64,000 nucleotides of DNA from Catenulispora sp. EB89 (GTDB lineage Bacteria; Actinomycetota; Actinomycetes; Streptomycetales; Catenulisporaceae): assembly GCF_041261445.1 (NCBI RefSeq), contig NZ_JBGCCU010000012.1:124001-188000 (forward strand), read 5' to 3'. The notes below the pieces were generated by a model, which had not been told where the DNA came from, did not search any database, and worked only from the letters and a program-made list of their open reading frames with translations. Positions 6,426 to 60,671 of the stretch are shown here, one piece after another; position 1 is the first letter of the stretch; each line of letters begins with the position of its first letter. A program made the translations under genes and the position numbers.

Positions 6426-9400
6426 GTGACCCCCATGTCGGACACGTACAGCGGCACGCCGATCGCCATCGTCGGCATCGGCTGCCTGCTGCCGGGCGCG
6501 AACACGCCCGAGCAGTTCTGGGACAACCTGCTCGCCGGTGCCGACCTGCGCCGCCCCGGTGACATCTCCACCTTCGGCGCCAACCCGGCCAACCCGGGCG
6601 GCTGGGGAGACGACACCCACAAGATCACCTCGGTGCGGGGCGGTTTCGTGACCGAGCCGGACATGGACCACGACGACCTGCGGGTCGACGCGCGGACCGT
6701 GGACGGTCTCGGCGCGGTGGTCCGGTGGCCGCTGTACGCGATCCGGCAGGCGCTGGCCGACGCCGGGATCGCCGAGGACGACCCGGCGCTGGCCCGCACC
6801 GGCCTGGTCCTGGGCAACTACTCCTTCCCCACGGAACAGTCGGGCAAGCTGTGCCTGCCGTTCTACCGGCACGGGGTCACCAACGGCCTGCGCCAGGCCG
6901 GACTCCCGCTGCCGGAGGCCGGCGAGTCCGGCTCCTGGCAGCCGAACGTCCCGGTCCGCTCGCTGTGGCCGTCCGGCCTGCCGGCCACCGTCGTGGCCGA
7001 CGCCTTCGGCCTCGGCGGGCCGCGGCTCGCGCTCGACGCGGCGTGCTCCTCGGCGCTGTACAGCGTGAGCCTGGGCCGGGACTACCTCGCCACCGGCGCC
7101 GCTGACGTGGTGCTGGCCGGCGCGGTCTGCGCCCCCGACCCGCTGCTGATCCACCTGTCCTTCAGCGATCTGCACGCCTACCCCGCCAATGGGGTCAGCG
7201 TGCCCTTCGACGCGGCCTCCTCCGGCATCGTCACCGGCCAGGGCGCCGGCGTGCTGGTCCTCAAGCGCCTGGCCGATGCCGTCCGCGACGGCGACCGCAT
7301 CCACGCCGTGGTCGAGTCCATCGGCCTGGGCAACGACGGGGCCGGCGCGCACCCCCTGGTCCCCAACATCTCCGGCCAACTGGCCACCTACGCGCAGGCC
7401 TACGGCTCCGGTGTGGACCCGCAGAGCGTGGACTACATCGAGTGCCACGCGACCGGGACCCCCGTGGGCGACCCGATCGAACTGCGCGGCCTCACCGAAT
7501 TCTTCGGCGCCGACCAGGTGCCGCTGCTGGGCTCGGTCAAGGGCAACGTCGGCCACCTGCTCACCGTCGCCGGATTCACCAGCGTCCTGAAGGTGATCCT
7601 GGCCATGCGGCACGGGGTCATCCCGGCCACGCCCACGCAGACCGGGCCGATCCGGCCGGCCGGCGCCGAGAACGCCGCCGACCGCCTGGTGATCGAGAAC
7701 CGGCCGTGGCCGGAGAACGGCGAGCGGCCCCGCCGGGCCGGCGTGTCAGCCTTCGGATTCGGCGGCACGAACGCACACCTGGTGCTCACCGACGCCGTCG
7801 AATCGGTGGCGCGAACGGCATCGGAGACGAAGCCCGCCGCGCCGCAGCCGGTCCGGATGGCCATCACCGGCATGGGAGTCCGGGTCGGCGAGGTCGCGAG
7901 TGTCAGTGCCCTGCGCAGCACCCGCCGGTCCGGCCGCCCGGCGCTCGCCGCGCGGCCGGAAACCCGTTGGTACGGCGCGGAATCCCTCGGCATCACGGAA
8001 CTGGAGTCCGAGGCGGACGCCGGCTACGTGGACAGCGTCGAGGTGGACGTCCGCGGCTACCGGATGCCGCCCGCCGAGCTCGCCCAGGCCAACCCCCAGC
8101 ACCTGCTGCTGTTCGAGGCCGCGAACGAGGCCCTGGCCGAAGCCCGGCTGACCGCGGCCGGCGCCAAGGGCCGCGGCGAGCGCCGCGTCGGCGTGGTCAT
8201 CGCCATGGAGATGGAGCCCCGCTCGCTGGCCCACCGCGCGCGGTTCGACATCGGCGCGCACGTGCGCGCCGAAGTCGCGCGTACCGGACTGGACCTCACC
8301 GCCGACGAGCTCGACCGGCTGGAGGCCGCGGTCCGGGCCGGCGTGCACGACCCCATCGGCGCCAACGAGGTGCTGAGCTACATCGGCAACGTCATGGCCG
8401 CGCGGATCGCCTCCGCGCACAACTTCACGGGACCCGCGTTCACCGTGACCGGCGATGCCACCGGCGGCGCGCGAGCGCTGGAGGTGGCGGGCCTGCTGCT
8501 GCTGGACCCGACCGTCGAGGCGGTCCTGGTCGGCGGCGTCGAACTGGCCGCCGGCTACGAGAACACCTTGGTCAGAACGGCGCTCGCGAACGGCATCCGG
8601 CCGGTGCTGGCCGACGGCGCCGCGGCACTGGTGCTCACCCGCGCGACCGCGGGCTCGGCGTTGACGGTGGACGCGGTGGTCACCGGTACCGCCGGCTCGC
8701 CATCGCTCGCCGCGCACGTGGAAGACGCGCTGGCGGGTACTGGACTGACCAGTGAGGATGTCGGCTATGTGGAACTGGCCGGCGGGATCGACGCCGAGCA
8801 GCTCAGTGCTCTGAGCCGGATCTACGAGGGTCGCGGCGACGACACCCCCGGCTGCGTGCTGGCCGCTCATCCGCCGCTGATCGGCGACACCCAGCAGGCG
8901 AGCGTCCTGGTCGGCGTCGTCAGCGCGGCGCTGAGCCTGCGGCACCGCGAACTGCCTCCGGCCGCGCCGGAACTGTTCGCGACGGCCGCGACGGCCGCCG
9001 GTTTCGGCGCCTCCGCGCTGCGGCTGCTGGAAGCCGGTGTGCCGTGGCTGCCGCGCCGCGTCGACGACCGTCTGGCGGCGGCGGTGCACGCGGTGGACGG
9101 TGCTTCGGCGGCGCACGTCATCCTCTCCGCGCCGCCGGCGCGCCCGGACATCGAGGCCATCGACTGGACCGGGGCCGGTGCCCCGGTGCTGATCCCGCTG
9201 TCCGGCGACTCCGGCGAGGAACTGGCCGCGGCGGCGCAGGAGTGCCTGACCGCCCTCGACAGCGGCCGCGCGCCGATCGACCTGGCTCGGGCGCACGCGG
9301 TGACGCCCCGCAGCGGCCGCTACGTCGCCGCCATCGTGGCCCCCGACGAAGCCGGTCTGCGCCGCGAGCTCGCCTCCGCGATGAAGTACCTGCCGCAGAC

Positions 9401-12400
9401 GGTCGCCGAGGGCCGGGACTGGACGACGCCGGCGGGCAGCTACTGCACGGCGAACCCGGCCGGTGCCGACGGCCGCGTCGCCTTCGTCTACCCGGGCGCC
9501 TTCACCGCCTACCCCGGCGCGGGCCGCGACGTGTTCACCCTGTTCCCCGGCCTGTTGTCGGAGTTCGAGCGCGACGCCCGCGCGCCGTGGTCGGAACTGA
9601 AGCACGCGGCGCTGTTCCCGAGCGCCCCGCTCGGCGTCGACCGCGAAGCGCTGATGCGCCACGAGGGCGAACTCATCGAGTCGATCCCGACCATGCTCGC
9701 CATCGGCACCAACTCCGCCGTGCTGGCGACGCGGATGCTCCGCGACACGCTGGGCATCCGGCCGGACGGCGGCTTCGGTTACAGCCTGGGGGAGAGCAGC
9801 ATGCTCTTCGCCATGGACGTGTGGGACGCGTCCGTGCGCGACGACGCCGCGCTGATCGCCTCCCCGCTGTTCGTGGACCAGCTGTGCGGGCCCAAGCGGT
9901 TCGTGCGGTCCGCGTGGGGCCTGCCGGACTCCACCCGGGACCGCGACGTGTGGACCACGCAGGTGTTCCTGGCCGGCGCCGAGGAGGTGCGGGCCGCGAT
10001 GCCAGGCCTGGACCGGGTGTACCTGACGCACGTCAACACCCCGAACGAGGTCGTCGTCGCGGGCTTCCCGGAACAGGTCGACGAGCTCAAGAACCGTTTG
10101 GGCTGCAAGGCGGCGAAGGCCCCGGCCAACCACGTCATGCACAACGCCGTGGTGCAGTCCGCGCACCCGCAGTTCGCGGCCCTCAACGACCACCCGCTCG
10201 GCGCGCCCGGATCAGGGCTCGAACTGCTGTCGAGCTTCGACTACGGGCTCGTCGATCCCTCGGACCGGGAAGTGATCTCCCGCCGCATCGCCGACACCCT
10301 GTGCACCACCGTCGACTTCGCCCGGCTCACCGAGAACGCCTACGAGCGCGGCTTCCGGGTGTTCATCGAAGTCGGACCCGGTGCGACCTGCACCCGGTGG
10401 ATCGGCGAGACCCTGGCCGGCCGCTCGCACGTCGCGGTCGCGGTGGACCGCCGCGGCATGTCGGTCGGCCAGTCGGTCTGCGCCATGGTCGCCCGCCTGG
10501 TCAGCCATGGCGTCGACGTGCGCCTCGACCGCCTGTTCCCGGCTCCGGCCCAGGCGTCCGTGCCCGCCTTCCGCGCCACTGTCGTCTGCGGCGGTGAGTC
10601 GCTGGTCGAGCGGGTCCGGGAGCGGGCCGAGCCGGTCCTGGCCGACGCGCTCGAGCTGCGCGCCCTGGACGCCGAGGTCGGACCGCTGCTGATCACCGCC
10701 GACCCCGATGTCATCGTCATCGAGGCGGAGCCCTTCGTGTACCTGCCCGCTCGCCGTCCCGTGGAGGTGGCTGCCGTGGCGCAGCCTGTGATCCCCGCCC
10801 AGCAGACCGTTCCGGTCGCCGACTACGTCCCCCAGGCCGCTCCGGTCGCCCAGGCCGCACCATTCGTCCAGGCTGCCCCGGTCTCCGACTACGCGGTCGC
10901 GGCCCGTAGCCGGGTGCTGGGTCCCATGCGCCATACCGTCTTCCAGGCCCATGGCTCGTTCCTGCGAGTACAGGGCACGTTGGCGCACGCCAGTCTGGAT
11001 GCCCTTGAGGCCGAACGGGGTGTGTTCTTGCCGTTCGCCCCCGAGCAGTGGGCGACTCCCGAGCAGCCCGCGATCCCCGCGATCTGGAACGAGGCGCAGC
11101 TGCTCGAGTTCGCCTCGGGCAACGTCGCCAACGTCTTCGGCCCCGAGTTCGCCGAATACGACACCTTCCCGGTGCGGGTGCGGCTGCCCGAGCCGCCGTA
11201 CCACTTCGTCACCCGGGTCACCGACCTCAAGGGCACGCCGGGTGTCTACGAGCCCTCGTCGATCACCACCGAGTACGACGTGCCAGTCGGCGCCTGGTAC
11301 AGCGTCGACGGCCTGGTGCCGTGCGCGGTCACCATCGAGGCCGGGCAGTGCGACCTGCTGCTGATCAGCTACCTCGGCATCGACTTCCGCAACCGCGGCC
11401 AGCGCGTGTACCGGCTGCTGGACAGCGAGCTGGTGTTCCACGGCGGCCTGCCGCGCGAGGGCCAGACCCTGCGCTACGACATCAACATCTCGCGCTTCGT
11501 CTGGAACGGCGACAGCCTGCTGTTCTTCTTCAACTACAAGTGTTACGCCGACGGCGAGCTCATCCTGGAGCTGCTGAACGCCTGCGCCGGGTTCTTCTCG
11601 GCCGCCGAGCTGGAGAACTCCCTCGGCGTGGTGACCAGCGCCGCCGACCGCCGCCGGCGCGAGGCCCTGACCCGCACCTGGTTCAAGCCGCTGGCCCGGA
11701 CCGACCGCACCTCGCTCGGTGCGGCGGACCTCGAACTGCTCGCGCACGGCCGGCCCGCTGAGGTGTTCGGCCCGGCCTGGGACCAGAGCGCTGACGGCAG
11801 CAACCGCTCGCTGCGGCTGCCGGACACGATGCTGCGGATGATCGACGAGATCACCACGATCGACCGGCTCGGCGGTCCGTGCGGGATCGGCGAGATGAGC
11901 GCGGTCAAGCACCTGGACCCCGAGGGCTGGTACTTCAAGTGCCACTTCCCGGGCGACCCGGTCCTGGCCGGCTCGCTGGTCGCCGAGGGCGGCGTGCAGC
12001 TGCTCCAGGTCTACGCGATGTACCTGGGTATGCACCTGGTGCTGCCGGACGCCGAGTTCCAGTCGGTGCCGGGCCTGAAGACCCAGGTGAAGGTGCGCGG
12101 CCAGATCACGCCGAACCAGAAGAGCCTGCGCTACCACGTGGAGATCACCAAGCTCACCATGCTGCCGCGGCCGACCGTGATCGCCGACATCGTCGTCTAC
12201 GACGGCGACAAGGCGATGATCAGCATGCAGAACTTCGGCGTGCAGGTGCGGGAGAAGCCCGGCACCCACTACCGGCCCGAGACCGGGGGCATCCCGGCCT
12301 TCCTGGGCCGCCGCAACGCCCAGGGCGAGCCGGCCTTCATCAACGAGCTGCACCTGTCGCACGCCGCCAAGGGCGACCTGGCGACCGCGATGGGCCCCGA

Positions 12401-24635: not shown

Positions 24636-27600
24636 TTACCCGACCTCCCCCTCAGCCCGCAGCACCGCCGCGAGCCGGGCGACGGTCGGGTTGTCGAACA
24701 GCCGCCGGAGTCCGTCGTCCTGGCTTCCGCCGGCGCCGAATTCCTTCGCGATCCGCTCCTGGATTCCGATCGCGCGGAGGGAGTCGCCGCCGAGTTCGAA
24801 GAAGTTTTCCTCGATGCCGAAGTCGTCGCGTTCCAGGACCTCGCGCCAGAAGCGGAGCAGGGTCCGCTCCAGTTCGTCGCGCGGTTCCGACGGTGTCGCG
24901 GAAGCCTGCTGCTCGCGGGGTGCCGGGAGCGCCGAGACGTCGACCTTGCCGTTCGGGCTCAGGGGGACCTTCGGGATCAGCAGGTAGTGCCGCGGCACCA
25001 TGTACTCCGGCAGCAGTTCCTCCAGCTCGGCGCGGAGTGCCTCGGCGGCGGGGTGGGGGCGGCCGGCGGGGGCTTCGCCTTCGGTGGGGACCAGGTACGC
25101 CACCAGCTGGCGGCGGCCTGTGCGGGGGTGGGTGTCCACCGCGACGATCGCCTCGCGGATGCCCGGGTGGCGGCGGAGGGGGGCCGCTATCTCGCCGAGT
25201 TCGATGCGGTAGCCGTTGACCTTCACCTGCGAGTCCTCGCGGCCCAGGAACTCGATGTCGCCGCCGGGGAGGTAGCGGCCGAGGTCGCCGGTGCGGTACA
25301 GGCGTGCCTTGGTGCGGGGGTGCACGATGAAGCGTTCCGCCGTGCGCTCCGGGTCGCCCCAGTAGCCGCGGGCCACGCCGCTGCCGCCGATGTAGATCTC
25401 GCCGGTCGCCCAGACCGGGCTCGGTTCGAGCCACTGGTCGTAGACGTGCATGGTCTGGTTGGCCAGGGGCTTGCCGTAGGGGATCGACGTCCACTCCGGC
25501 GGTACTGCGCCGATCGGGTGGTGGATCGACCAGATCGACGCCTCGGTGGCGCCGCCGAGGCTCATGATGCGGGTCGCCGGGTACGTCGCGCTGATGCGGT
25601 CCGGCAGGGTCACCGGGATCCAGTCGCCGCTCATCATCACCAGTCGCAGGGCGGTGCCGGGCGGGGCCGCGTCCGCGTCGTGCGCGTCGATCCACGCCTG
25701 CATCAGCGCCGGGACGGTGTTCCACAGCGTCACCTGGTGCCGGTTCACCAGCTCGCTCCAGTGCCGCGGTTCGGCCGAGCGGCCCGGTTCCGGCATGACG
25801 ACCGCGCCGCCGGCTGCCAGGAGGCCGAACACGTCGTACACCGACAGGTCGAAGCTGAGTGCGGACAGCGCCAGCACTCGGTCCTGCGGGGTGACCTGGA
25901 AGCGGCCGTTGAGGTCCTGGATGGTGTTGGCCGCGGCGCGGTGGTCGATCATGACGCCCTTCGGCGTGCCGGTCGATCCGGACGTGAAGATCACGTACGC
26001 CAGGTCCTCCGGGGCCGGTCCGGTCGGCGGCGGGGTAGGCGGCGCCGAGCGCACTTCGGCGTCCGTCAGGGTCAGCAGGCTGATGTCGTCGGGCCAGCTC
26101 AGCTCGTCGCGCAGGCGGGGCGTCGTGACCACCGTCCGGACCCGGCCCTGCCGCAGGATCTGCTCGCGCCGGGCGGCCGGCCAGTGCGGCTCGATCGGCA
26201 GGTATGCCGCGCCCGACCTGGTGACGCCGAGGGCGGCGGCCACCTGCGCGTAGCCCTTCTCGGCGATGATGCCGACCAGCGTGTCGCGCTCCGCGCCGGC
26301 CGAGTGCAGCACGTGCGCCAGCCGGTACGCGTCCCCGACCAGCTCGCGGTAGCTGTGCTCGCCGCCGTCGGCCGTGATCACGGCCACCGCGTCCGGGGCC
26401 CGCTCGGCCTGCTCCTCGACCAGGTCGCAGAGCGTCCGCGCCGGGATCGGCGCCTCGGTGTCGTTGGCCCGGCAGCGCTCCACGGCCTGCGCCTCCGGCA
26501 GGACGACGAGCTCCGCCTCGTCCCAGGCGCCCTCGCTCCCGCCGAGCTGCTCCAGGCACGCGCGGTGCGCGGCGAACATCTCCGCCACCATGTCGTCGGG
26601 GAACAGGCCGTCCACGTAGTCCCAGTTGACCAGCAGCTCGCCCCGCTCCTCCAGCACCTGGTAGTCCAGCCAGACCTGCGGCGTCTGGCTCGCGCCGAAC
26701 ACGACGTCGCCGAACATCTGCGCCGACTCGGTGATGTTCGACGCGGAGTCGAACCCGATCATCGACGTGAACACCACCGGCATCGCGGCCCCTGGCCGCC
26801 CGCCGAGGCGCCTCGCGCGCTCCCGCAGGACCCGGACTCCGGAGAACGAAGAGTGTCCGAGGTCTTCCATCAGCTGGTGGTGCAGCCGCTTGGCGCGCCC
26901 GGCGAAGGAGTCCTCGGACTCGGGCCGCGATTCCAGCAGCACCACCGAGGTGAAGTCGCCGATCACCTCGCCGAGCCGCGGATGCGACGGCGGCCGGTTG
27001 AACAGCGTCAGGTTCAAGGTCAGCTCCGGCCGCTTCGACCAGCGGCGCAACACGTCGGCATAGGCCGCCAGCAGCACCGCCGACGGAGTCAGGCCCCTGC
27101 TGCGCGCCGTCTCCTTGATGGCCGACCAGTGCTCCGCGGACAGCCGGGTGTGCTGCCGGGCGAACGCCGGGCGCGAGAGCTGCCCGGGCTGGACCGCCAG
27201 CGGCAGCTCGGGAGCCGGCGGCAGCTGGTCGAGCCGGTCCAGCCAGTACTGCTTGTCCGCCTCGAACCCGCGCCCGTCCTGCTGCTGCTTCTTCTCGGCG
27301 AGCACGTAGTCGCGGAAGCTGACGTCCAGGGGTTCGGGCTCGGTCTCGGGGTGGCTGTAGAAGGTGAACCAGTCGCGCTGGAAGATCCCGATGCTGAACC
27401 CGTCCATGATGAGCATGTCGAAGCTCATGTGCAGCCGCCAGCGCCGGTCCTCCAGCTTGGTGGCCCGGATCTCGAACAGCGGCCAGCGGTCGGCGGGGAT
27501 GATCTGGTCGGACAGCTCCGCCCGGATCGCCTCGATCCCGGCCTCCCGCCCGGCGTCATCCAGCCCGGACAGGTCGGCGACCGCGATGTCGTACTCCGGC

Positions 27601-28031
27601 ACCTCGGGCCGGACCTGCTGGTACCCGCCGGGCTGGATGACGGCGCGGAGCATGCCGTGCCGCCGGATGAGCTTGTTCAGCGCCCGGCCGAGCCGGGGGA
27701 CGTCCAGATCCACGGCGTCGAACTCGAGATAGCCGTGCGCCGCGTTCCCGCCCAGCTCCACCGCCGGCGTCCGGCCCACCCAGTAGGCCTGCTGGATGTC
27801 GGTCAGCGGGAACGGCTCGTGCCACTGGGCCGGCTGCGCCCGCAGGCCCGCCGGCTCGTCCGCGCGCTCGGCCCGCGAGATGATCTCGATGAGCTCGTCC
27901 TTGCGCAGGCTCATCTCCTCGCGCAGCGCGGGCGTCAGGGCGCCGGGCGGCGCCGTCACGTGCAGCTTGCCGTCGGCGAGCCTCAGCCGCACCCCGCGGC
28001 GGTACAGCTCGGCGAACAGGTCCGTGGTCAT
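24636..28031 (-). CDS. NRPS module Cy-A(Cys)-PCP with N-terminal docking domain
   Basis: This 1131-residue single module begins with a TubC-like docking domain of about 50 residues (ALTPALREEMSLRKDEL). A heterocyclisation domain follows, with FPLTDIQQAYWVGR and the diagnostic DxxxxD (D205-D210, DMLIMD) that replaces the HHxxxDG of ordinary condensation domains. The adenylation domain has SGSTGTPKG at about 680-690. Aligned to the GrsA pocket, its specificity residues read D-L-Y-N-M-S-L-I-W, one change from the cysteine code DLYNLSLIWK. The PCP has S1084 in LGGDSLRA. It should activate cysteine, condense it with the upstream acyl chain and cyclise it to a thiazoline. There is no oxidase, thioesterase or reductase domain. 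It starts 21 bases after the PKS stop, with AGGAAGG as ribosome-binding site. Confidence 0.93.
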   Translation of the reverse strand: MTTDLFAELYRRGVRLRLADGKLHVTAPPGALTPALREEMSLRKDELIEIISRAERADEPAGLRAQPAQWHEPFPLTDIQQAYWVGRTPAVELGGNAAHGYLEFDAVDLDVPRLGRALNKLIRRHGMLRAVIQPGGYQQVRPEVPEYDIAVADLSGLDDAGREAGIEAIRAELSDQIIPADRWPLFEIRATKLEDRRWRLHMSFDMLIMDGFSIGIFQRDWFTFYSHPETEPEPLDVSFRDYVLAEKKQQQDGRGFEADKQYWLDRLDQLPPAPELPLAVQPGQLSRPAFARQHTRLSAEHWSAIKETARSRGLTPSAVLLAAYADVLRRWSKRPELTLNLTLFNRPPSHPRLGEVIGDFTSVVLLESRPESEDSFAGRAKRLHHQLMEDLGHSSFSGVRVLRERARRLGGRPGAAMPVVFTSMIGFDSASNITESAQMFGDVVFGASQTPQVWLDYQVLEERGELLVNWDYVDGLFPDDMVAEMFAAHRACLEQLGGSEGAWDEAELVVLPEAQAVERCRANDTEAPIPARTLCDLVEEQAERAPDAVAVITADGGEHSYRELVGDAYRLAHVLHSAGAERDTLVGIIAEKGYAQVAAALGVTRSGAAYLPIEPHWPAARREQILRQGRVRTVVTTPRLRDELSWPDDISLLTLTDAEVRSAPPTPPPTGPAPEDLAYVIFTSGSTGTPKGVMIDHRAAANTIQDLNGRFQVTPQDRVLALSALSFDLSVYDVFGLLAAGGAVVMPEPGRSAEPRHWSELVNRHQVTLWNTVPALMQAWIDAHDADAAPPGTALRLVMMSGDWIPVTLPDRISATYPATRIMSLGGATEASIWSIHHPIGAVPPEWTSIPYGKPLANQTMHVYDQWLEPSPVWATGEIYIGGSGVARGYWGDPERTAERFIVHPRTKARLYRTGDLGRYLPGGDIEFLGREDSQVKVNGYRIELGEIAAPLRRHPGIREAIVAVDTHPRTGRRQLVAYLVPTEGEAPAGRPHPAAEALRAELEELLPEYMVPRHYLLIPKVPLSPNGKVDVSALPAPREQQASATPSEPRDELERTLLRFWREVLERDDFGIEENFFELGGDSLRAIGIQERIAKEFGAGGSQDDGLRRLFDNPTVARLAAVLRAEGEVG

Positions 28032-28052: not shown

Positions 28053-31000
28053 TTACAGGATGAGTTCTTCGATCTCGCCGGCGGCCGCCGGCTCTTCGTC
28101 GCCGGTGACGACCAGGCTTCGGGCAGCCAGGGACCGGCAGACCAGGTCCACGACGTCCGCCACGGTGGCCTCGCCCAGCAGGCGCTGCGGCGGGACGTCC
28201 ACGGACAGCACGGCGCGCAGCTGCTCCCGGAGCCGCATCGCGCGCAGCGAGTCCAGGCCGAGATCGCCCAGCCGCAGTTCGGGGAACCGCTCGCGCAGGT
28301 TCTCGCGGTCGTCGTCGAGTCCTTCGACCATGGTGGTGACCCGGGTGAACAGGATGTCGGTGAAGGTCTGTCGCGCGGCCTGCGGTTCTTCGATGGCCAG
28401 GCGCGACAGTTCTCCGACATCCCAGGACGCGGTGTCGTCCGGCTTCAGATCGGCGAGATCAGCCGGGTCGGCGGCAGTGTGTCTGAGCCCTGTGATGCTC
28501 GCCAGCGGTTCGCCGGAGTCGGAGTACAGCTCCAGGTCGATCGGGCCTTCGGAGGTGCGGCGTGCGTGGCACCACAGTCGGTGTGGGAGGTCGCGGTGGC
28601 GGGTGAGCTGGGACAGGCTCGACGGCAGCCACGTCCGGTCGGAGTCGCCGCCTTCGACCAGCGGCAGCGCCGTGCGGAAGCAGGCTTCGAGAACAACAGG
28701 ATTCAGAAGGTACTGATCGGTGTCGGCCTCGATGAGTGCCAGGGCCTCGTCCTCGCCCAACCGGGCGCGCAGCCCGTTCAGATACGTGGCGGACGGGACT
28801 GGCTGGTCGGCCTGCGTGGCCGAGGCCGTGAACACCGGCGTCCAACCGCGGTCGGCGTCCGCGCTGAAACCGCGGATCGCGCCGTGGGAGTGGACCGTCG
28901 TCTGGAGGACGAGGGGGAGCGCGGCGGGCTCACCGAGGGCGAGATCCTCGATCGTCAGGGTATTGCCACCGTGGCTTGCGGCGGCCAGTGCCCACTCGGC
29001 GACGACGGCCAGCGGCAGGGTAGGTGCGTACCAGGGCTCTTGTGCGGTCAGCACCTGGGAGAAGCGGCGCTCGGTCGAGCCGGCGAGGTCGATCGGGCCG
29101 CCGAGCAGCGGATGCACGGATTCCTTGACGATGTCGGGCCCGGCTCCCGCGCGGCTCCGGCCGGTCGGCGCGTCGAGCCAGAAGCGTCGGCGCTGGAACG
29201 GATACCCGGGCAGCCGGATCCGTCCGGCGCCGGTCCCGGCGAAGACCGCCGGCCAGGACACGGATGTCCCAGCGGTGAAGGCCGTGGCCAGACGCGGCAC
29301 CAGCTGATCAGCCGTGATGTCGGGATCCAGCTCCAGGACGCTCGCCGCTCCCCGCGCCCGGACTTCGGACCGGACGTCCTCGGCGTCGGAGCGCAGGAAA
29401 TCGGCCGAGGCCCAGTAGCTCGGGTCGGCCGGGTCGCCGCCGGTGGAGACGAGGGTGAGACGCGGCTTGGCGTAGTCGATCCGCTGTGCGGTGGCGCACA
29501 GGGTGTCGGGCGCGCAGGCGCTCGCCGCGAGTGACAGGGCGTCGGCGTACGACAGGATCCCGGCGACGTGTGCGGCGGCGATCTCGCCGATTCCCGAGCC
29601 CGCGACGAGCTCCGGTGCCACTCCGCACGCACTCAGCCGCTCGTAGGCCTGCACCATGGCCGGGAAGCATTCGGCGGCCGAGGCGGGTTCGCAGCCCACG
29701 AACACCATCGCGGTCTTCGCCGAGGCGGAAGCGCCGGTGTGCAAGCCGGGTGCGTCGTCGCCACGAGCCAGGGCCGCCAGCGCGGCGAGGTGTTCGTCGA
29801 CGGACGCGGCCAGAATCACCGCGCGGTGCTTGAACGAGGACCGGTGGGCCAGCGAGACTGCGACCTCTGCGATACCGGCCGGTGAAGTGGCGAGAAAGGA
29901 ACCGAGCTCCGCGGCCATGGCTCGCAGCGCCGGTTCGGTCTTCGCCGAAAGCACCCACGGTGTGGCCGAACCAGCGGCCGAACCAGCGACCGGACCCTCG
30001 GCATCACCCGGAGCGCTGTCGGCTTCTGCCGCAGCCGCCTCCTCAAGAATCACATGCGCGTTGGTCCCGCTGATCCCGAACGACGACACCCCGGCCCGCC
30101 GGGGCCGCCCCTCGGCCGGCCACGGCACCGACTCCGTCGTCGGCACGACGGTCCCGTCGGACCAGTCGACGTACCCGGACGGCCGGTCGATGTGCAGCGT
30201 GCGCGCGTGGATCCCGGCGCGCATGGACATCACCGTCTTGATCACGCCGGCCACGCCGGACGCGGTCTGCGTGTGCCCGATGTTCGACTTGACCGAGCCC
30301 AGCCGCAGCGGCCGGGCCGGATCCCGCTTCTCGCCGTAGACGGCGATCAGCGCCTCGGCCTCGATCGAGTCGCCGAGCGCCGTGCCGGTCCCGTGCCCCT
30401 CCACCGCGTCCACCTGGTCGGGGGTGAGCCCGGCGGCCTCCAGTGCCTGCCGGATGACCGCTTCTTGCGCCGAACGGCTCGGCGAGGTCATGCCGTTCGT
30501 CGCGCCGTCCTGGTTGATCGCCGTGCCGCGGATCACCGCGAGCACGGAGTGGCCGTTGCGCTGTGCCACGGACAGCCGTTCCAGCGTCAGCAGCCCCGCG
30601 CCCTCGCCGAACCCCATGCCGTCCGCGGCGCTCGCGTAGGGCTTGCAGCGGCCGTCGGCGGCCAGGGCGCCGCGGCGGCTGAACTCGTCGAGGACGCTGG
30701 AGGTGGCCATCACGGTGACGCCGCCGGCCAGTGCCAGGTCGCAGTCGCCGCGCCGCAGGGCCTGGCACGCGAGGTGGATGGCCACCAGCGCGGAGGAGCA
30801 GGCCGTGTCGATGCTGATCGCCGGCCCGCGCAGGCCCAGGGTGTGGGAGACGCGGCCCGAGGCCGTGCTCGGCGAGCTGCCGATGATCAGCTGGTCCGCG
30901 ACGCTCGCCGGGAGCGCGTCCCGGGGCCCCGCGCCGTAGTCGGAGTAGGACACGCCGGCGTAGACGCCGGTCTGGGATCCGCGCAGGCCGACCGGGTCCA

Positions 31001-31382
31001 CGCCGGCGTCTTCGAGTGCTGACCACGCGGTCTCCAGCAGCAGCCGCTGCTGCGGATCCATCGCCAGCGCCTCGTGGTCCCCGATCCCGAAGAACTCGGC
31101 GTCGAACAGGTCGGCTCCGGTGATGAAACCGCCGCGGCCCGCGCCGGAACCGGAGCTCCAGCCGCGGTCGTCGGGAAACGGCGAGATCCCGTCGCCCTCG
31201 CCGGCCACGAACCGCCACAGCTCGGCCGCGGAGCGCAGGCCGGGGGGAAAGACGCAGCCCATGCCGACGACGGCGATCGGCTCGGAATCCCTGAGCTCGG
31301 CCTCGCGCAGCCTCCGGGCGGTCTGCTGAAGTTCGCCGGTGGCCTTCTTCAGATACTGGCGCAGCTTTTCTTCATCGGCCAT
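28053..31382 (-). CDS. PKS module KS-AT(dead)-DH(dead)-ACP
   Basis: This 1109-residue protein has a charged coiled-coil docking segment (MADEEKLRQYLKKATGEL) and then a complete KS with C195 in DTACSSA, HGTGT and SNIGHTQ. A shortened AT follows, in which the GHSxG nucleophile box has become GSGIG (S596, with G597 at the serine position); it also lacks the GQGSQ and YASH/HAFH motifs. The DH-like region starts at HPLLGG but has WYAPT where WLADH is expected, so its catalytic His is gone. The ACP is intact (S1045 in LGLDSLRA). As drawn it cannot choose its own extender. It may pass a chain through without extension, or be loaded in trans. It is the first gene of the minus-strand operon and feeds the cysteine NRPS. 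Confidence 0.9.
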   Translation of the reverse strand: MADEEKLRQYLKKATGELQQTARRLREAELRDSEPIAVVGMGCVFPPGLRSAAELWRFVAGEGDGISPFPDDRGWSSGSGAGRGGFITGADLFDAEFFGIGDHEALAMDPQQRLLLETAWSALEDAGVDPVGLRGSQTGVYAGVSYSDYGAGPRDALPASVADQLIIGSSPSTASGRVSHTLGLRGPAISIDTACSSALVAIHLACQALRRGDCDLALAGGVTVMATSSVLDEFSRRGALAADGRCKPYASAADGMGFGEGAGLLTLERLSVAQRNGHSVLAVIRGTAINQDGATNGMTSPSRSAQEAVIRQALEAAGLTPDQVDAVEGHGTGTALGDSIEAEALIAVYGEKRDPARPLRLGSVKSNIGHTQTASGVAGVIKTVMSMRAGIHARTLHIDRPSGYVDWSDGTVVPTTESVPWPAEGRPRRAGVSSFGISGTNAHVILEEAAAAEADSAPGDAEGPVAGSAAGSATPWVLSAKTEPALRAMAAELGSFLATSPAGIAEVAVSLAHRSSFKHRAVILAASVDEHLAALAALARGDDAPGLHTGASASAKTAMVFVGCEPASAAECFPAMVQAYERLSACGVAPELVAGSGIGEIAAAHVAGILSYADALSLAASACAPDTLCATAQRIDYAKPRLTLVSTGGDPADPSYWASADFLRSDAEDVRSEVRARGAASVLELDPDITADQLVPRLATAFTAGTSVSWPAVFAGTGAGRIRLPGYPFQRRRFWLDAPTGRSRAGAGPDIVKESVHPLLGGPIDLAGSTERRFSQVLTAQEPWYAPTLPLAVVAEWALAAASHGGNTLTIEDLALGEPAALPLVLQTTVHSHGAIRGFSADADRGWTPVFTASATQADQPVPSATYLNGLRARLGEDEALALIEADTDQYLLNPVVLEACFRTALPLVEGGDSDRTWLPSSLSQLTRHRDLPHRLWCHARRTSEGPIDLELYSDSGEPLASITGLRHTAADPADLADLKPDDTASWDVGELSRLAIEEPQAARQTFTDILFTRVTTMVEGLDDDRENLRERFPELRLGDLGLDSLRAMRLREQLRAVLSVDVPPQRLLGEATVADVVDLVCRSLAARSLVVTGDEEPAAAGEIEELIL

Positions 31383-31795
31383 GACTGATGCGGCCCCCTG
31401 CTATTGGTAAAGTGATTCGCGGACCCGGGATGGATTTCTTGTCGCATTCCCGATTCCCGCCTCGACCCTACGGGGGCGGCCCTGATCGCCGACACCCCAC
31501 TTCCACCCCTACCGGACCCCGGCTTCGATCGGGCGGTGGGGTCCGGCCCGTCTCGCGCAGGATACGGCGACGGTGTCCCGGCCGACACCCTTATCCGCCC
31601 CCTAGTCGCGGCTCCTTTTCGCATAAGGGTGCGATAAGGGTTGGAGCCGGCCCCCGGGGAATCTAACGTTGCCGAGGTGTCGGGCCGAGAATAATCGAAT
31701 GTCAGGGCGCTGTCACTTCCGAGTACGACCTTCACCTACCATCACCGAGGCGGGATTGAAATGGAAACGGTCGACTACATATCGGAAAACCTCTG
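31383..31795. promoter_or_regulatory. Divergent promoter region with paired ATAAGGGT boxes
   Basis: This 413-base region separates the divergent PKS/NRPS and halopyrrole operons. On the plus strand ATAAGGGT occurs at 31623-31630 and 31634-31641, an 11-bp direct repeat. The same box is inverted at 31587-31594 (ACCCTTAT). From the inner plus-strand box to TAACGT (31664-31669) is 22 bases; from the minus-strand box to TATCCT (31559-31564, read on the minus strand) is also 22 bases. Both hexamers fit an actinobacterial -10 (TANNNT), which puts each box over the -35 position, as expected for an activator such as a SARP or LuxR-type protein. No regulator of that kind lies in the window. Ribosome-binding sites are AGGGGG for the PKS and GGAAAA for the dehydrogenase. 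Confidence 0.6.
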
Positions 31796-32932
31796 ATGGA
31801 CTTCGAGCCGTCACCGATTCAGCGTGAACGCTGCGCCGAGATCAGCGCCGCCGTCGTCGAGCGCTTCTCCGAGCACGAGACGTCCACCGACCCGGAGCAG
31901 GTGCGCCTGGCATGGAAGGACGCGGCGGCCGCCGGCCTCACGGCGCTGTGCGTGTCGCAGGAATACGGCGGGACCGGCCTGGGGGCCCTGGACACCGCGC
32001 TGGCCCTGGAGGCGTTCGGCCGTTCCTGCACTGACATGGGCCTGGTGTTCGGGGTGGCGGCACACCTGCTGTCCTGCGCCGTGCCGGTCCAGGACTTCGG
32101 CACGGCCGCGACCAGGGACCTGCTGGCCGGTATGGCCTCCGGCGACGTGGTCGCCGGCAACGCCATGACCGAGGACGAGGCCGGCTCGGACATCGGCCGG
32201 ATCCGCGCCACCGCCACGCGCACCGACGAGGGCTACGTGCTGCACGGCGAGAAGTCCTTCGTCAGCAACGGCCCGATCGCCGACGTCTACGTGACCTACG
32301 CGGTCACCGATCCCACCGCCGGCTTCCTCGGCGTCTCGGCGTTCGCCGTCCCGCGCGAGCTCGACGGCGTCGTCGTCGGTGAGCCGCTGCGCAAGATGGG
32401 CCTGGAGGGCTGCCTGGCCTCGCGGGTCCGGTTCGACGGCTGCGTCGTGCCGGCCCAGTACCTGCTCGGCTCCGAGGGCAGCGGCGGCGCGATCTTCCAG
32501 CACTCCATGGCCTGGGAGCGCGGCGCGCTGTTCGCCGGCTACCTCGGGCAGATGGGGCGGCAGCTCGCCGAGTGCGTCGACCATGTGAACAACCGGCGCC
32601 AGTTCGGCCAGAAGATCGCCGGGTTCCAGGCCGTCTCGCACAAGATCGCCCGGATGCGGCAGCGGCTGGAGAGCGCGCGCCTGATGCTCTACCGCGCCTG
32701 CTGGCTGCTCGACGAGGGCCGCACCGACGTCGTCGCGATCGCCATGGCGAAGACCGCGGTGTCCGAGGCCGCGATCGCCAACAGCCTGGACGCCATGCAG
32801 CTGTTCGGCTCGATGGGCTACCTGGTCGAGACCGGGATCGAGGCGCAGCTGCGGGACAGCCTGCCCACCACCATCTTCTCCGGGACCACGGAGATCCAGA
32901 TGGAGCTCATCGCGAGGGGGACGGGCCTGTGA
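31796..32932 (+). CDS. Prolyl-S-PCP dehydrogenase (acyl-CoA dehydrogenase fold)
   Basis: This 378-residue flavoprotein resembles the L-prolyl-PCP dehydrogenases of pyrrole pathways (PltE, RedW and Bmp3 types). It has the flavin motif TEDEAGSDIG, a likely catalytic glutamate in AWERGALFAGYLG (E241, as in isovaleryl-CoA-dehydrogenase-like members) and the C-terminal FSGTTEIQ flavin loop. The family oxidises prolyl-S-PCP to pyrrole-2-carboxyl-S-PCP with FAD. It is translationally coupled (GTGA) to the proline adenylation gene and is the first gene of the halopyrrole operon, which makes the assignment firm. It is much shorter than the other two dehydrogenases in the window. Confidence 0.93.
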   Translation: MDFEPSPIQRERCAEISAAVVERFSEHETSTDPEQVRLAWKDAAAAGLTALCVSQEYGGTGLGALDTALALEAFGRSCTDMGLVFGVAAHLLSCAVPVQDFGTAATRDLLAGMASGDVVAGNAMTEDEAGSDIGRIRATATRTDEGYVLHGEKSFVSNGPIADVYVTYAVTDPTAGFLGVSAFAVPRELDGVVVGEPLRKMGLEGCLASRVRFDGCVVPAQYLLGSEGSGGAIFQHSMAWERGALFAGYLGQMGRQLAECVDHVNNRRQFGQKIAGFQAVSHKIARMRQRLESARLMLYRACWLLDEGRTDVVAIAMAKTAVSEAAIANSLDAMQLFGSMGYLVETGIEAQLRDSLPTTIFSGTTEIQMELIARGTGL

Positions 32933-34419: not shown

Positions 34420-34688
34420 CCCTCGACGAGGTCACACCAAGGATCATGAAATTCATCAGCGAGAGCTTCCTGGAGGGCGACCCCAAGGGCGAGCTGACGG
34501 AGACCACCCCGCTGCTGGAGTGGGACGTCCTGAACTCGATGAACAGCGCGCTCCTGCTGAACTACCTGCGCGAGGAGCTGCACGTCGACGTCCCGCTGGC
34601 CTCGATCAACGCCGCGAACTTCCGGACCGTCGCCGCCATCAGCCTGCTCGTCTCCGGCCTGACGGCCGACTCCGCGGAAGGTGTCTGA
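34416..34688 (+). CDS. Stand-alone peptidyl carrier protein for proline/pyrrole
   Basis: This 90-residue carrier protein has the modified serine in WDVLNSMNSALLL, the pattern seen in the dedicated PCPs of pyrrole biosynthesis (PltL, RedO and Bmp1 types). It carries proline through oxidation and halogenation and then presents pyrrolyl thioester to the first KS of the large PKS. Flanking coupling (ATGA upstream, 5-base gap downstream) places it in the four-gene halopyrrole operon. It needs phosphopantetheinylation, for which an Sfp-type enzyme is encoded nearby. Confidence 0.93.
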   Translation: MTLDEVTPRIMKFISESFLEGDPKGELTETTPLLEWDVLNSMNSALLLNYLREELHVDVPLASINAANFRTVAAISLLVSGLTADSAEGV

Positions 34689-34693
34689 GAACC

Positions 34694-36034
34694 ATGAGTG
34701 TCGACTACGACGTCGTGATCGTCGGCGGCGGTCCGGCCGGCTCCACCGCCGCGGCCTACCTGGCCAAGGCCGGCCTGTCGGTGGCCGTGTTCGAGGGTGA
34801 CAACTTCCCGCGGCCGCACGTCGGCGAGTCGCTGGTGCCGGCCACCACCCGGTGCCTGCTGGAGACCGGCGCGATGGAGAAGGTGGAGGCGGCCGGCTTC
34901 CCGAAGAAGTACGGCGCCGCCTGGACCGCCGCCACCTCGCCGAACATCAACGCCGACCTGGCCGCCACGCTCACCCACGAGCTCGGCACCGCCGACATCC
35001 TGTTCAAGGAGCGCGACCAGCCCGGCACCGACCGGGACTACACGTTCCACGTCGACCGCAGCAAGTTCGACCTGATCCTGCTCAAGCACGCCGAGAGCCT
35101 GGGCGCCAAGGTGTTCCAGGGCATCCGGGTGCTGCGCGCGGACTTCGACGACCCGGAGCAGGTCACCGTGACCGCCCGGATGGGCCGCCACGAGGTCGGC
35201 GTCACCGCGAAGCTGGTGATCGACGCCTCCGGCCGGCAGACCTTCCTGGGCCGGCAGCTGGGGACCAAGGAGTCGGACCCGGTCTTCGACCAGTACGCGA
35301 TCCACACCTGGTTCGAGGGCCTGGACCGCAGCGAGGTCGCCAACAGCCCGGAGAAGGTCGACTACATCTACATCCACTTCCTGCCGATCACCGACACCTG
35401 GGTGTGGCAGATCCCGATCACCGACACCGTCACCAGCATCGGCGTCGTGACACAGAAGAAGCAGTTCGCCGAGGCGAACCTGGACCGCGAGGCCTTCTTC
35501 TGGAAGTTCGTGGAGAGCCGGCCGGACCTGGCCGCGGCGCTGAAGAAGACCAAGCGGGTCACCGACTTCAAGGTCGAGGCCGACTACAGCTACGCGATGA
35601 AGGAGATCTGCGGCGACCGGTACGTGCTGATCGGCGACGCCGCACGCTTCGTCGACCCGATCTTCTCCTCCGGGGTGAGCGTCGCGCTGAACAGCGCGCG
35701 GCTGGTCACCGACGACATCCTCAAGGCCTTCGCGAACGACGACTTCTCCAAGGCGTCCTTCGCCACCTACGAGAAGACGATCCGCAACGGCGTGCGCAAC
35801 TGGTACGAGTTCATCTCGGTCTACTACCGGCTGAACATCCTGTTCACCACGTTCGTGGCGGACCCGCGCTACCGGCTGGACGTCATCAAGATGCTGCAGG
35901 GCGAGATGTACGACGGCGGCAAGCCCGAGGCGCTGCGCGTCATGCAGGAGACGGTGGCCGCGGTCGAGGCCGACCCGACCCACCTGTGGCACCCGCACCT
36001 GGGCAACCTGCGGGTCGCCCCGGTGGACGCGTAG
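34694..36034 (+). CDS. FAD-dependent pyrrolyl-PCP halogenase
   Basis: This 446-residue flavin-dependent halogenase has the FAD-binding GGGPAGS near the N-terminus, the halogenase signature WVWQIP (236-241) and DPIFSSGVSVAL, which lines the FAD/halide site. Length and motifs match the PltA/Bmp2/Mpy16 group that halogenates pyrrole bound to a PCP rather than free tryptophan. It uses reduced FAD (from a flavin reductase not seen here), oxygen and chloride or bromide. The number of halogens cannot be read from the sequence. The ATG at 34694 was chosen because it follows the PCP stop closely and begins just before the FAD fold. Confidence 0.92.
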   Translation: MSVDYDVVIVGGGPAGSTAAAYLAKAGLSVAVFEGDNFPRPHVGESLVPATTRCLLETGAMEKVEAAGFPKKYGAAWTAATSPNINADLAATLTHELGTADILFKERDQPGTDRDYTFHVDRSKFDLILLKHAESLGAKVFQGIRVLRADFDDPEQVTVTARMGRHEVGVTAKLVIDASGRQTFLGRQLGTKESDPVFDQYAIHTWFEGLDRSEVANSPEKVDYIYIHFLPITDTWVWQIPITDTVTSIGVVTQKKQFAEANLDREAFFWKFVESRPDLAAALKKTKRVTDFKVEADYSYAMKEICGDRYVLIGDAARFVDPIFSSGVSVALNSARLVTDDILKAFANDDFSKASFATYEKTIRNGVRNWYEFISVYYRLNILFTTFVADPRYRLDVIKMLQGEMYDGGKPEALRVMQETVAAVEADPTHLWHPHLGNLRVAPVDA

Positions 36035-36051: not shown

Positions 36052-36765
36052 CTAGAAACCGTGACCGGCAGCGCCGTCCGAGAAGGGCCCGCCGTGCTCC
36101 GCCGGCAGTCCGAGCGTCCGGGTCAGCACCCTGATCCCCGGCGCCCGGACCGCGACGCAGGCGATCACCGCGGGGTCCCGGACGGCGACATCGGACAGCG
36201 ACCACGCACCGACCTCGCCGAACCCGGCGGGAAGCGAGACCAGGCCACCTCCGGCAGTGGTGACCACCTCGCGCAAATGCGTGGCCAGTCCGGTGCCCAG
36301 GGCCTTGGCCACCGCCTCCTTCCGGGTCCAGAAGCGGAGCAGCTGGGCGTCCCTGAGCTCGTCCGGCAGGGCGTCCAGGGCCTGCTGCTCGCTCGCGGAC
36401 AACGCCGTGCGGGCCAGCGCGTCGCGATCGGGCAGCGGCCGCAGCCGTTCGACGTCGACCCCGACCGGGGCGTCCCGGGACACCGCGGCGGCCACCACGG
36501 CCTCGGCGTGGCTCAGGCTCACGTGCAGACCGCCGGGATCCAGGACGAGCGGACGCCCCCGCTCGTCGCGGTCCCAGTGCTGTTGCTCGGGCGGGCATGA
36601 GGTGTACGCCCGTACGAGCTCCCGGCCGAACCGGCGCGCGGCGTCCCGGATCTCACGGTGCCGCCGGGCGCGCTCCTCCAGGCCCGGCGACCGGTCCCCG
36701 GGCGCCGGGCCGGCCGCCACCCAGACGGCCACCTGGCCAGACCCCGAGGGGTGCGGCTCACCCAT
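36052..36765 (-). CDS. Sfp-type 4'-phosphopantetheinyl transferase
   Basis: This 237-residue enzyme attaches phosphopantetheine from CoA to carrier-protein serines. Magnesium-binding GVDVE is at 102-106 and the catalytic WTRKEAVAKALG at 146-157. It is convergent with the halogenase (17-base gap) and divergent from the big PKS gene (66-base gap). It is the likely activator of the ACP/PCP domains of this cluster, since no other candidate is present in the window. Confidence 0.93.
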   Translation of the reverse strand: MGEPHPSGSGQVAVWVAAGPAPGDRSPGLEERARRHREIRDAARRFGRELVRAYTSCPPEQQHWDRDERGRPLVLDPGGLHVSLSHAEAVVAAAVSRDAPVGVDVERLRPLPDRDALARTALSASEQQALDALPDELRDAQLLRFWTRKEAVAKALGTGLATHLREVVTTAGGGLVSLPAGFGEVGAWSLSDVAVRDPAVIACVAVRAPGIRVLTRTLGLPAEHGGPFSDGAAGHGF

Positions 36766-58593: not shown

Positions 58594-59220
58594 TCAGCTC
58601 GCCCTCGCAGCCGCCGCACCGCAAACCCGCAGCGTGCTCTCCAAACACAGCGACTGAGCCTCCTGCGCGCTCAGCTGCCCGCCCGCGACCTGCGCCGCCG
58701 CCGTGTGGTGCAGTCCCAGGACGGCGGCGGCGAGCCAGGTCGCGGGGAGCGCGGCGTCGAACTCGCCGCCTTCCTGTCCGCGCTGGATGATCCGCTCCAG
58801 CCTCGGGGGCACGACGTCGTGCGGGTCGTCGCTGGTCGGGCGGGGGACCGAGGATGCGGCGCCGGTGAGCAGCAGCGGGTACCGGTGCATGAATTCCCAG
58901 CCTGCGGCGAGGAAGCGGGCCAGTGCCTCGGCCGGTGGGGCCGTGTCCAGGTCCGCGTCGTCGAGGAGAGCCGCGTATTCGGCGGCTGCGGTTTGTACGA
59001 CGGTCGCCAGCAGGGCGTCGCGCGAGGGGAAGTGTGCGTAGACGGTCTGGCGGGTGACGCCTGCCGTGGCGGCGATCTCCTCCATGCCGGCGTCGGGCTG
59101 GCGGCCGAGGACGACGCGGGCCGCGGTGAGGATGGCGTCGATGTTCTGCCGGGCGTCGGCTCGGCGGCGCCGGGTCGGCGTGCCGGTGGCGGTGCTGGTG
59201 GTGTCGCGCAGATCGGCCAT
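58594..59220 (-). CDS. TetR-family transcriptional regulator
   Basis: This 208-residue regulator has a TetR helix-turn-helix at about 26-75 (MEEIAATAGVTRQTVYAHFPSRDALL) followed by a variable ligand-binding domain. It is divergent from the ABC exporter operon, the classic arrangement of a drug-responsive repressor that controls its neighbour exporter. The intergenic repeats described below are its likely operator. The ATG at 59220 (MADLRDT) is preferred; the longer frame to 59325 would run through the operator and past the exporter's own start codon, and has no sensible domain. Confidence 0.9.
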   Translation of the reverse strand: MADLRDTTSTATGTPTRRRRADARQNIDAILTAARVVLGRQPDAGMEEIAATAGVTRQTVYAHFPSRDALLATVVQTAAAEYAALLDDADLDTAPPAEALARFLAAGWEFMHRYPLLLTGAASSVPRPTSDDPHDVVPPRLERIIQRGQEGGEFDAALPATWLAAAVLGLHHTAAAQVAGGQLSAQEAQSLCLESTLRVCGAAAARAS

Positions 59221-59243
59221 CTTCAGAAGGGTATCCCGCGGCC

Positions 59244-59304
59244 ATAACTTTGACAACTTGTCAGAGATAGGCGTGAGATAACCTTGACAGCGCGTAAGAG
59301 ATAG
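59244..59304. promoter_or_regulatory. Direct-repeat operator between tetR and the ABC exporter genes
   Basis: Two copies of a 27-bp element start at 59244 and 59278 (34-bp offset), both running ATAAC, TTGACA, a variable core, then AGAGATAG. The first copy contains a perfect palindrome TGACAACTTGTCA (59251-59263). On the minus strand TTGTCA with a 17-base spacer and TACCCT could be the tetR promoter, so a repressor bound here would block both directions. Confidence 0.6.
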
Positions 59305-59318
59305 AGAACGCTGGCAGC

Positions 59319-60671
59319 ATGCCAACGAAGAACGCTGACGAGGGTCGTCCGGCGATCGAGATGCGTGGCCTGGTCAAGGCCTACGGCGAGAAGCGCGCGC
59401 TGGACGGCATCGATCTCGCGATCCCCGCGGGCCAGGTGTTCGGCTTCCTCGGTCCCAACGGGGCCGGCAAGACCACCACGATCCGCATCCTCGCCACCCT
59501 GACCCGCCCGACCGGCGGCAGCGCCCGGGTTCTGGGCCACGACGTGGCCACCGAGGCCGACGCCATCCGGGCCCGCATCTCGGTCACCGGCCAGTTCGCC
59601 TCGCTGGACGAGGACCTGACCGGGTCCGAGAACCTGCTGATCCTCGGCCGGCTCCAGGGCCTGTCCCGGGCCGCCGGCCGAGCGCGGGCCGACGACCTGC
59701 TGGACGCGTTCGACCTGACCGCGGCGGCCGGCCGCCCGGTGCGCGGCTACTCCGGCGGGATGCGCCGCCGGCTCGACATCGCCGCGAGCCTGATCGTCAC
59801 GCCCGACCTGCTGTTCCTCGACGAGCCCACCACCGGGCTGGACCCGCGCAGCCGCAACCAGGTCTGGGAGCTGGTCCGCCGGATCGCCGCCGCCGGGACC
59901 ACGGTCCTGCTGACGACTCAGTACCTTGAGGAAGCCGACCAGCTCGCCGAGCAGATCGCGATCATCGACCAGGGCCGGATCGTGGCCCAGGGCACGGCGA
60001 CGCAGCTCAAGGCGCGCGTCGGCTCCGGCGCGCTGCACCTGCGGCTCCTGGACGGCGGCCAGCGCGCGCTGGCGCAGAAGATCCTGACCCGGGCGCTGGG
60101 CGCGGCGGTCCACCTCGAAGCCGACCCGCTGGCCCTGTCCACCCTGCTGGGCACGCCGGCCGACCCCACCGACGCCAACCGGCTGGTCGGGCAGGCGCTG
60201 GTCCGGCTCGCCGAGGCCGGGGTCGCGGTCGCGGACTTCGCGCTCGGCCAGCCGAGCCTCGACGAAGTCTTCCTCACGCTGACCGGCCACACCACCGGCC
60301 ACCCCGACGGCCCGGGCACCGACTCGGCCGCTGATTCGGCCACCGGCTCGACCGCTGATTCGGCTACCGGCCCGGTTACCGGCTCGGCTACCGGCCCGGC
60401 CACTGATTTGGCGACTGATTCGGCCACTGATTCGGCCACCGACTCGACCGCTGACTCGGCCACCGACTCGGCCACTGCTCCGGGCGCCGGCTCGGCCACC
60501 GACTCGGCTACCGGCTCGGATGCCGGCGCGGCCACCAACTCGGCCACTGCTCCGGGCGCCAGCCCGGCCACCGACCTGACTACCGCCCCCACCCCCGCGG
60601 CCGGCCCGGTTCCCCCGGCCGGGCCGGCCGCACCCGCGACCCCCGCCAACCGTGAGGACGTGAACGCGTGA
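59319..60671 (+). CDS. ABC transporter ATP-binding protein, DrrA-like, with long repetitive C-terminal tail
   Basis: This 450-residue ATPase has Walker [11 protein letters not shown], signature [10 protein letters not shown] and Walker [14 protein letters not shown], closest in style to daunorubicin-resistance DrrA exporters. The ordinary protein ends near residue 325 ([11 protein letters not shown]). About 115 further residues are a low-complexity tail of DSATDSAT-like units and then a Pro/Ala stretch, which DrrA homologues normally lack. It is coupled by GTGA to the permease gene and pairs with it to export a hydrophobic product, probably as self-resistance. The ATG lies directly after the operator, so the mRNA leader must be very short. 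Confidence 0.92.
60320..60545 (+). repeat. Degenerate 12-bp repeats coding D-S-A-T units in the ABC ATPase tail
   Basis: Variants of a GACTCGGCCACC / GATTCGGCTACC unit are repeated about eighteen times, coding (D/G)-(S/P)-A-(T/D). The region is prone to slippage, so its length may differ between strains or be misassembled. Confidence 0.75.

Follow-up and report, generated by a model that had tools for sequence, protein, structure and literature searches.

Two sets of biosynthetic genes face away from each other across a 413-bp intergenic region (positions 31,383 to 31,795) of the window, by which we mean the whole 64-kb stretch of Catenulispora DNA that was analysed. How these genes are switched on, and by which protein, is the question raised by this locus. 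On the plus strand an acyl-CoA dehydrogenase (ACAD) gene is followed by genes for an adenylation enzyme and a halogenase (Pfam), a combination typical of pathways that make a halogenated pyrrole starter; from its context, we take the ACAD to be of the pyrrole-forming type. A PKS and an NRPS gene lie on the minus strand (Table 1). A preliminary description had seen here two mirror-image promoters at which an activator of the SARP or a similar class would turn on the halopyrrole and NRPS operons together.

Divergent arrays of paired boxes

The octamer ATAAGGGT occurs three times within 55 bp of the intergenic region and nowhere else in the 64-kb window, for which the expected count is 0.02 (at least three copies in 0 of 100 shuffles). 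Read 5' to 3', the plus side is ATAAGGGT-GCG-ATAAGGGT, 22 nt and TAACGT, and the minus side is CTAGGGGG-CGG-ATAAGGGT, 22 nt and TATCCT. It had been claimed that the same octamer stands in each direction 22 nt before a TANNNT hexamer, which is exact on both strands, and that a second plus-strand copy lies 11 bp upstream; the two plus copies do start 11 bp apart. Two features of the region had been missed. The minus copy has a degenerate partner, CTAGGGGG, 11 bp upstream, so that direct-repeat pairs are present on both sides, and the minus strand carries a third, weaker array with TAGGGT 23 nt further on. The full element consists of two TARGGGT boxes 11 bp apart, then 21 to 23 nt, then a TA-type -10 element, the octamer being half of the direct repeat. 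A consensus scan found no sigma-70 site at either -10 element, yet TANNNT at 21 to 23 nt recurs in arrays. No terminator was found by a scan of 31380-31800, where the single promoter-like match lies elsewhere than either -10 element, and Rfam gave no match in 31000-32200.

Table 1. Features of the intergenic region and adjoining genes, in window coordinates (invariant columns refer to an alignment of five species)
Feature	Position	Strand	Basis or remark
-10 element TATCCT, minus promoter (candidate)	31559..31564	-	22 nt past proximal minus box; 3/6 columns invariant
Proximal minus box ATAAGGGT	31587..31594	-	Window count; 6/8 columns invariant
Distal minus box CTAGGGGG	31598..31605	-	11 bp upstream of proximal box; array scan; 6/8 columns invariant
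Distal plus box ATAAGGGT	31623..31630	+	Window count; 7/8 columns invariant
Proximal plus box ATAAGGGT	31634..31641	+	Window count; 7/8 columns invariant
-10 element TAACGT, plus promoter (candidate)	31664..31669	+	22 nt past proximal plus box; 5/6 columns invariant
Third, weaker array GTAGGGGT-GGA-AGTGGGGT	31494..31512	-	Further CCGGGGT unit 11 bp upstream; array also in C. rubra
Candidate -10 TAGGGT of third array	31465..31470	-	Gap 23 nt
ACAD, first full gene of plus operon	31796..32932	+	Pfam Acyl-CoA_dh domains
Halogenase, plus operon	34520..36034	+	Pfam Trp_halogenase / FAD_binding_3
PKS module (KS, DH, carrier protein), minus operon gene 1	28053..31382	-	Pfam
NRPS module (TubC docking, C, A, T), minus operon gene 2	24636..28031	-	Pfam
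11-codon leader ORF METVDYISENL	31761..31796	+	Stop overlaps ACAD ATG (TGATG); read from sequence

Specificity and conservation of the element

A genome-wide search had been proposed as a check on the octamer. Alone, it is not specific, because the 11.9-Mb genome holds 43 matches to ATAAGGGT against 16 for the pattern read backwards, whereas the spaced pair with its -10 element is. Two copies of ATAAGGGT at a gap of 10 to 30 nt, a pattern that leaves out the 3-nt gap of this region, were found nowhere in the genome. None of 5000 dinucleotide shuffles of the 413-bp region matched the two TARGGG-N5-TARGGG pairs observed, nor did any of 5000 reach the two observed composites of TARGGG, 22 to 25 nt and TANNNT (TANNNT stands at 0.7% of positions in the shuffled region).

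A position weight matrix (PWM) made from the boxes of the mirrored region was run over the window and 80 kb of flanking DNA and picked out a single further strong array, situated 5' of a thioesterase gene. It reads GTAGGGGT-CTG-ATAGGGGG, 22 nt and TACGGT, and its position (L002:17673, window coordinate -2327) is 2.3 kb beyond the left end of the window. As it was not used in building the first PWM, it is an independent match; it was added to the PWM for later scans, from the relatives onward. Scans of the cluster regions gave four arrays in 144 kb of Catenulispora and, in the homologous regions of three Streptomyces, six in 140 kb, six in 80 kb and five in 140 kb (some overlapping). Every one of the four cluster regions scanned has paired boxes, as does the C. 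rubra promoter, and 400 kb of control DNA (other DNA of three of these genomes) has none. Same-strand TARGGG distances of up to 40 bp were exactly 11 bp in 14 of 18 cases, and of the 14 TANNNT hexamers 5 to 44 nt after 15 arrays, 12 stood at 21 to 23 nt. The second mirror pair of Streptomyces departs from this rule, since one of its sides has TAATAC or TAGTGC at 22 nt, which is not TANNNT.

TARGGG-N5-TARGGG is concentrated in the cluster rather than enriched genome-wide, for the four genomes contain 20 matches (15 when read backwards), of which 14 fall inside the roughly 0.5 Mb (of 39.5 Mb in all) taken up by the cluster regions. Six pairs lie outside: two in this genome (G000), where no TANNNT is found at 18 to 27 nt, and four in two of the Streptomyces (G011 and G013), two of these with TANNNT at 24 nt (on contigs C24 and C8) and two without. 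The extra-cluster pair with TANNNT at 24 nt is alike in the two Streptomyces (L160, G011 C24; L159, G013 C8). The two extra-cluster pairs of G000 (L144 and L137; C9:205460 and C5:405091) recur in like surroundings in C. rubra (L148 and L153).

The mirrored pair was also found in five relatives: C. rubra, three Streptomyces (S. musisoli, Streptomyces sp. NRRL F-5123 and S. echinatus) and one Frankia. A contig search with the ACAD protein, which is 93% identical in C. rubra, returned 25 loci, and the same pair stands upstream of ACAD in four, from C. rubra and the three Streptomyces. The remaining 21 have no mirrored pair (L047 is without upstream DNA), and a single weak array lies within 200 bp of the ACAD start in five of them (L038, L039, L042, L044 and L045). 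In Frankia (G067) the pair, with both gaps of 22 nt, is on the same contig as orthologues of ACAD, halogenase, PKS, NRPS and the LAL protein described below; another ACAD locus of the same Frankia genome (L048) has no mirrored pair. In a five-species alignment 34 of 44 columns were invariant inside the boxes and -10 elements, against 19 of 67 between them.

In all six genomes one side of the mirrored pair is directed at the ACAD gene. What the opposite side points at differs: it is the PKS-NRPS operon in Catenulispora, a second acyl-CoA dehydrogenase gene in Frankia and, antisense, the 3' end of the thioesterase gene in the three Streptomyces. It seems that the layout of the divergent module persisted through changes in its partner genes. 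The spacer between the mirror halves measures 17 bp in Catenulispora, 15 bp in Streptomyces and 6 bp in Frankia, and this variation suggests that the halves work separately, each on its own side. In the three Streptomyces (for example L079, about 9305-9480) the mirrored array and its -10 element both aim antisense into the thioesterase gene, and in two of them (G011 and G013) a second dehydrogenase gene lies just past it; this side may drive an antisense transcript that has been conserved, or it may be left over from a Frankia-like order.

That antisense orientation could be taken to mean that a single promoter is served by all four mirrored boxes acting as one palindromic operator, with a structural role for the mirrored side. 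This is distinctly unlikely, as the halves are 17, 15 or 6 bp apart according to genus, each has its own TANNNT at 22 to 23 nt, and in Frankia the mirrored side is followed by a gene in sense orientation. That the repeats arose by chance in GC-rich DNA has practically no probability: some 8-mer does occur three times in 668 of 5000 shuffles of the 413-bp region, and a repeated 8-mer is weak evidence by itself, but the spacing, the composite structure and the conservation across three genera speak against chance.

The LAL protein as candidate regulator

The preliminary description had looked to a cluster-linked regulator outside the window, and there is one. A LAL (large ATP-binding LuxR-family) protein of 970 aa with AAA_16 and GerE domains (Pfam), that is, an AAA ATPase of the LuxR/GerE kind, is encoded just outside the window (window coordinate 73560-76472), 42 kb away, next to a Na/H exchanger gene that is also its neighbour in the three Streptomyces clusters. 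Sixteen proteins of the region in this genome gave matches in two or all three of the Streptomyces clusters and, in a domain scan that took in most of the 16 after crude gene calling, LAL was the sole one in which a DNA-binding domain was found. It is the only regulator found to be common to the clusters. Its orthologues show 65 to 69% identity in the three Streptomyces in one comparison and 69 to 72% in another (domains confirmed by Pfam in G011) and 65 to 68% on the Frankia contig that bears the mirrored pair. All six genomes have a LAL orthologue, which is on the same contig as the mirrored pair in five; in C. rubra it is on a different contig, which leaves linkage in that species uncertain. 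Upstream of the LAL gene itself the scan detected no array.

The core of the GerE helix-turn-helix, STVEQHLT, did not differ among the 16 LAL loci retrieved by similarity, even in those of 33 to 38% overall identity (some of the 16 are near-duplicates), and a shared operator is predicted from this constancy. A PDB sequence search gave six matches, all to the C-terminal helix-turn-helix region. A plasmid search for LAL proteins had no match at 1e-60 and 46 records at 1e-15. The LAL frames hold one TTA codon in C. rubra, two in S. echinatus and none in the window's genome (counted over the whole open frame and dependent on the start site; L062 and L064 are among the loci), a hint that bldA control may operate in some lineages. 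Among the activators of antibiotic gene clusters, LAL proteins form a major class (PMC6627628, excerpt), and one of them, LodR3, activates several promoters of its own cluster in a reporter host (PMC10100954, excerpt). For the two LALs of geldanamycin, the recognized sequences are said to remain to be elucidated (PMC6784220, excerpt).

From this we judge it probable that the region is a divergent pair of activator-dependent promoters, and that the LAL of the cluster binds the boxes and co-activates both operons and the thioesterase gene. On each side, two head-to-tail TARGGGT boxes would occupy about -53 to -35, presumably on one face of the helix because they are 11 bp apart. If the -10 hexamers start at -12, the proximal box would extend from about -42 to -35, with its centre near -38.5 and no recognizable -35 hexamer. 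The promoter-proximal site of MalT is centred at -37.5 or -38.5, so that the proximal box would be placed much as at MalT sites, and LAL resembles MalT in combining an ATPase with a C-terminal DNA-binding domain. LAL would bind the boxes through its GerE domain and oligomerize along the direct repeats as MalT does; by analogy, the activated oligomer could contact RNA polymerase in place of a -35 element and recruit it with the main sigma factor. The predicted outcome is joint activation of the PKS-NRPS operon (minus), of the ACAD-adenylation-halogenase operon with the large NRPS genes (plus) and, via the array left of the window, of the thioesterase gene, with putative transcription starts near 31676 (+) and 31552 (-) and the operons extending as supposed here. 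MalT is a STAND ATPase that oligomerizes and binds cooperatively to promoter sites (PMC10427625, excerpt); its box differs, being quoted for E. coli as GGA[TG]GA (PMC9628970, excerpt) against TARGGGT here.

The boxes might instead be occupied by another regulator, chromosomal or cluster-linked (TetR, HTH_3, a sigma factor or a GerE response regulator), possibly a repressor. Candidates exist nearby: two TetR genes (58594-59325, -; L003:77-826), an HTH_3 match so weak that it falls below its cut-off (L003:7250-7747) and sigma-factor genes in the left flank (L002). We consider this unlikely, as none of the TetR, HTH_3 or sigma-factor genes is among the proteins with matches in at least two Streptomyces clusters (crude gene calling), though the boxes recur there, and boxes in tandem with their end at -35 are in keeping with an activator. 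TetR operators, moreover, are inverted repeats. Of the earlier proposal, the joint activator of the halopyrrole and NRPS operons agrees with the layout (divergent promoters, 11-bp phasing and boxes just upstream of and touching -35), while its SARP class is not supported. At SARP promoters the 3' repeat is placed 8 nt from the -10 element, unlike the box-to-10 gap here, which is mostly 21 to 23 nt (22 nt on both sides of this region). A BTAD search of four whole genomes found no BTAD (SARP) domain in the homologous clusters of the three Streptomyces (G011, G012 and G013), where the common regulator is LAL. A SARP-type activator encoded elsewhere and binding the 11-bp direct repeats is thus very unlikely, even though this genome has 45 BTAD hits, the nearest of which begins at C12:83761 and is some 37 kb to the left of the thioesterase array. 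The SARP operators, PimR's and others, do share with the boxes here direct repeats of 11-bp units near -35, upstream of the -10 element, but TARGGGT is unlike the PimR heptamer CGGCAAG (PMC5930380, excerpt).

Known operators, other LAL genes and cluster context

NemR, the nemadectin LAL, reportedly recognizes TGGGGTGKATAGGGGGTA (work of Li et al. in 2019), in which GGGGT units are said to be 11 bp apart. The element here has the same units and the same period as the motif reported for NemR, and on that ground would belong with known LAL operators. NemR activates operons directly via a conserved binding motif, according to the introduction of a later paper (PMC12858678, excerpt). Unlike in the NemR operator, the arrays here are mirrored between divergent operons and keep 21 to 23 nt to a TA-type -10 element in three genera; the fixed distance to -10, the mirrored form and the reach over three genera are what the present element adds.

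The PHO consensus is GTTCACC, unlike TARGGGT. The 11-nt period of PhoP (PHO) boxes is alike, these too being made of direct repeat units (PMC6784220, excerpt). The PAS-LuxR operator, CTVGGGAWWTCCCBAG (PMC9942304, excerpt), has a similar CTAGGG half-site, but its repeats are inverted, whereas the two boxes of each array here are direct repeats and do not match that pattern; no PAS-LuxR was present among the cluster proteins scanned. Literature term searches showed no description of a TAGGGGT-type LAL operator among the papers listed, which does not show that there is none in print, and the text matches to CCCTA or TAGGG among those examined were primers or the PAS-LuxR site (PMC9942304, excerpt).

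The composite of two boxes 10 to 12 bp apart and TANNNT at 21 to 24 nt, limits that were fixed after seeing two scans with simple patterns, was sought in 18 other LAL neighbourhoods (709 kb, outside the four training clusters). It had 11 matches, against one in the same DNA read backwards, and none forward and two backwards in 761 kb of control DNA, which was not matched for gene-cluster content. These 11 fall near five of the 18 LAL genes, and 13 neighbourhoods have none. Of the five positive regions, that of Frankia is the orthologous cluster, G014 and G018 had already been glimpsed in the ACAD-locus scan, and G034 and G015 are unlinked to the starting set. With the simple patterns, the first 10 LAL regions (367 kb) had given eight pairs and 10 boxes with TANNNT (zero and four backwards; zero and two in 400 kb of control), and the second eight (255 kb) one pair and three boxes with TANNNT (zero and one backwards; one and one in 361 kb of control), so that the signal in the second set is hardly above the controls. 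Near a LAL gene of 34% identity (L171-L172; G034 C62) there are two copies of ACAAGGGTGYCTAGGGGT followed after 22 to 23 nt by TANNNT.

A general LAL operator code in actinobacteria is possible, and not more, because 13 of the 18 regions lack the element. Such a code would consist of two TARGGGT-like boxes 10 to 12 bp apart and 21 to 24 nt from TANNNT, read by a nearly invariant GerE recognition helix, the mirrored form being a movable divergent module whose partner genes were exchanged between lineages. Our confidence in it falls a little short of even. If it were true, one could predict from sequence which promoters of silent gene clusters are under LAL control. A conserved operator of fixed geometry would let LAL regulons be predicted, and expression of a single gene could activate clusters like this halopyrrole PKS-NRPS.

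The thioesterase and ACAD genes adjoin each other in the three Streptomyces; in Catenulispora they are separated by a block of about 33 kb (window -1447 to 31382) encoding a PfaD-like protein, a dehydrogenase, a cyclase, an aminotransferase, an MMPL protein and the PKS-NRPS pair. Only two of the genes at 251-24325 have matches in at least two of the three Streptomyces clusters, at 30 to 36% identity. A phosphopantetheinyl transferase gene (36052-36765, -) lies antisense between the halogenase gene and a large NRPS gene, and shows 68 to 73% identity in the three Streptomyces. The leader ORF ahead of ACAD may couple its own translation to that of ACAD. An ORF of the same length, with an ATG, TTG or GTG start, is present in C. 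rubra, S. musisoli, S. echinatus and Frankia, and in NRRL F-5123 an ORF of that length is followed by a small gap before the ACAD start.
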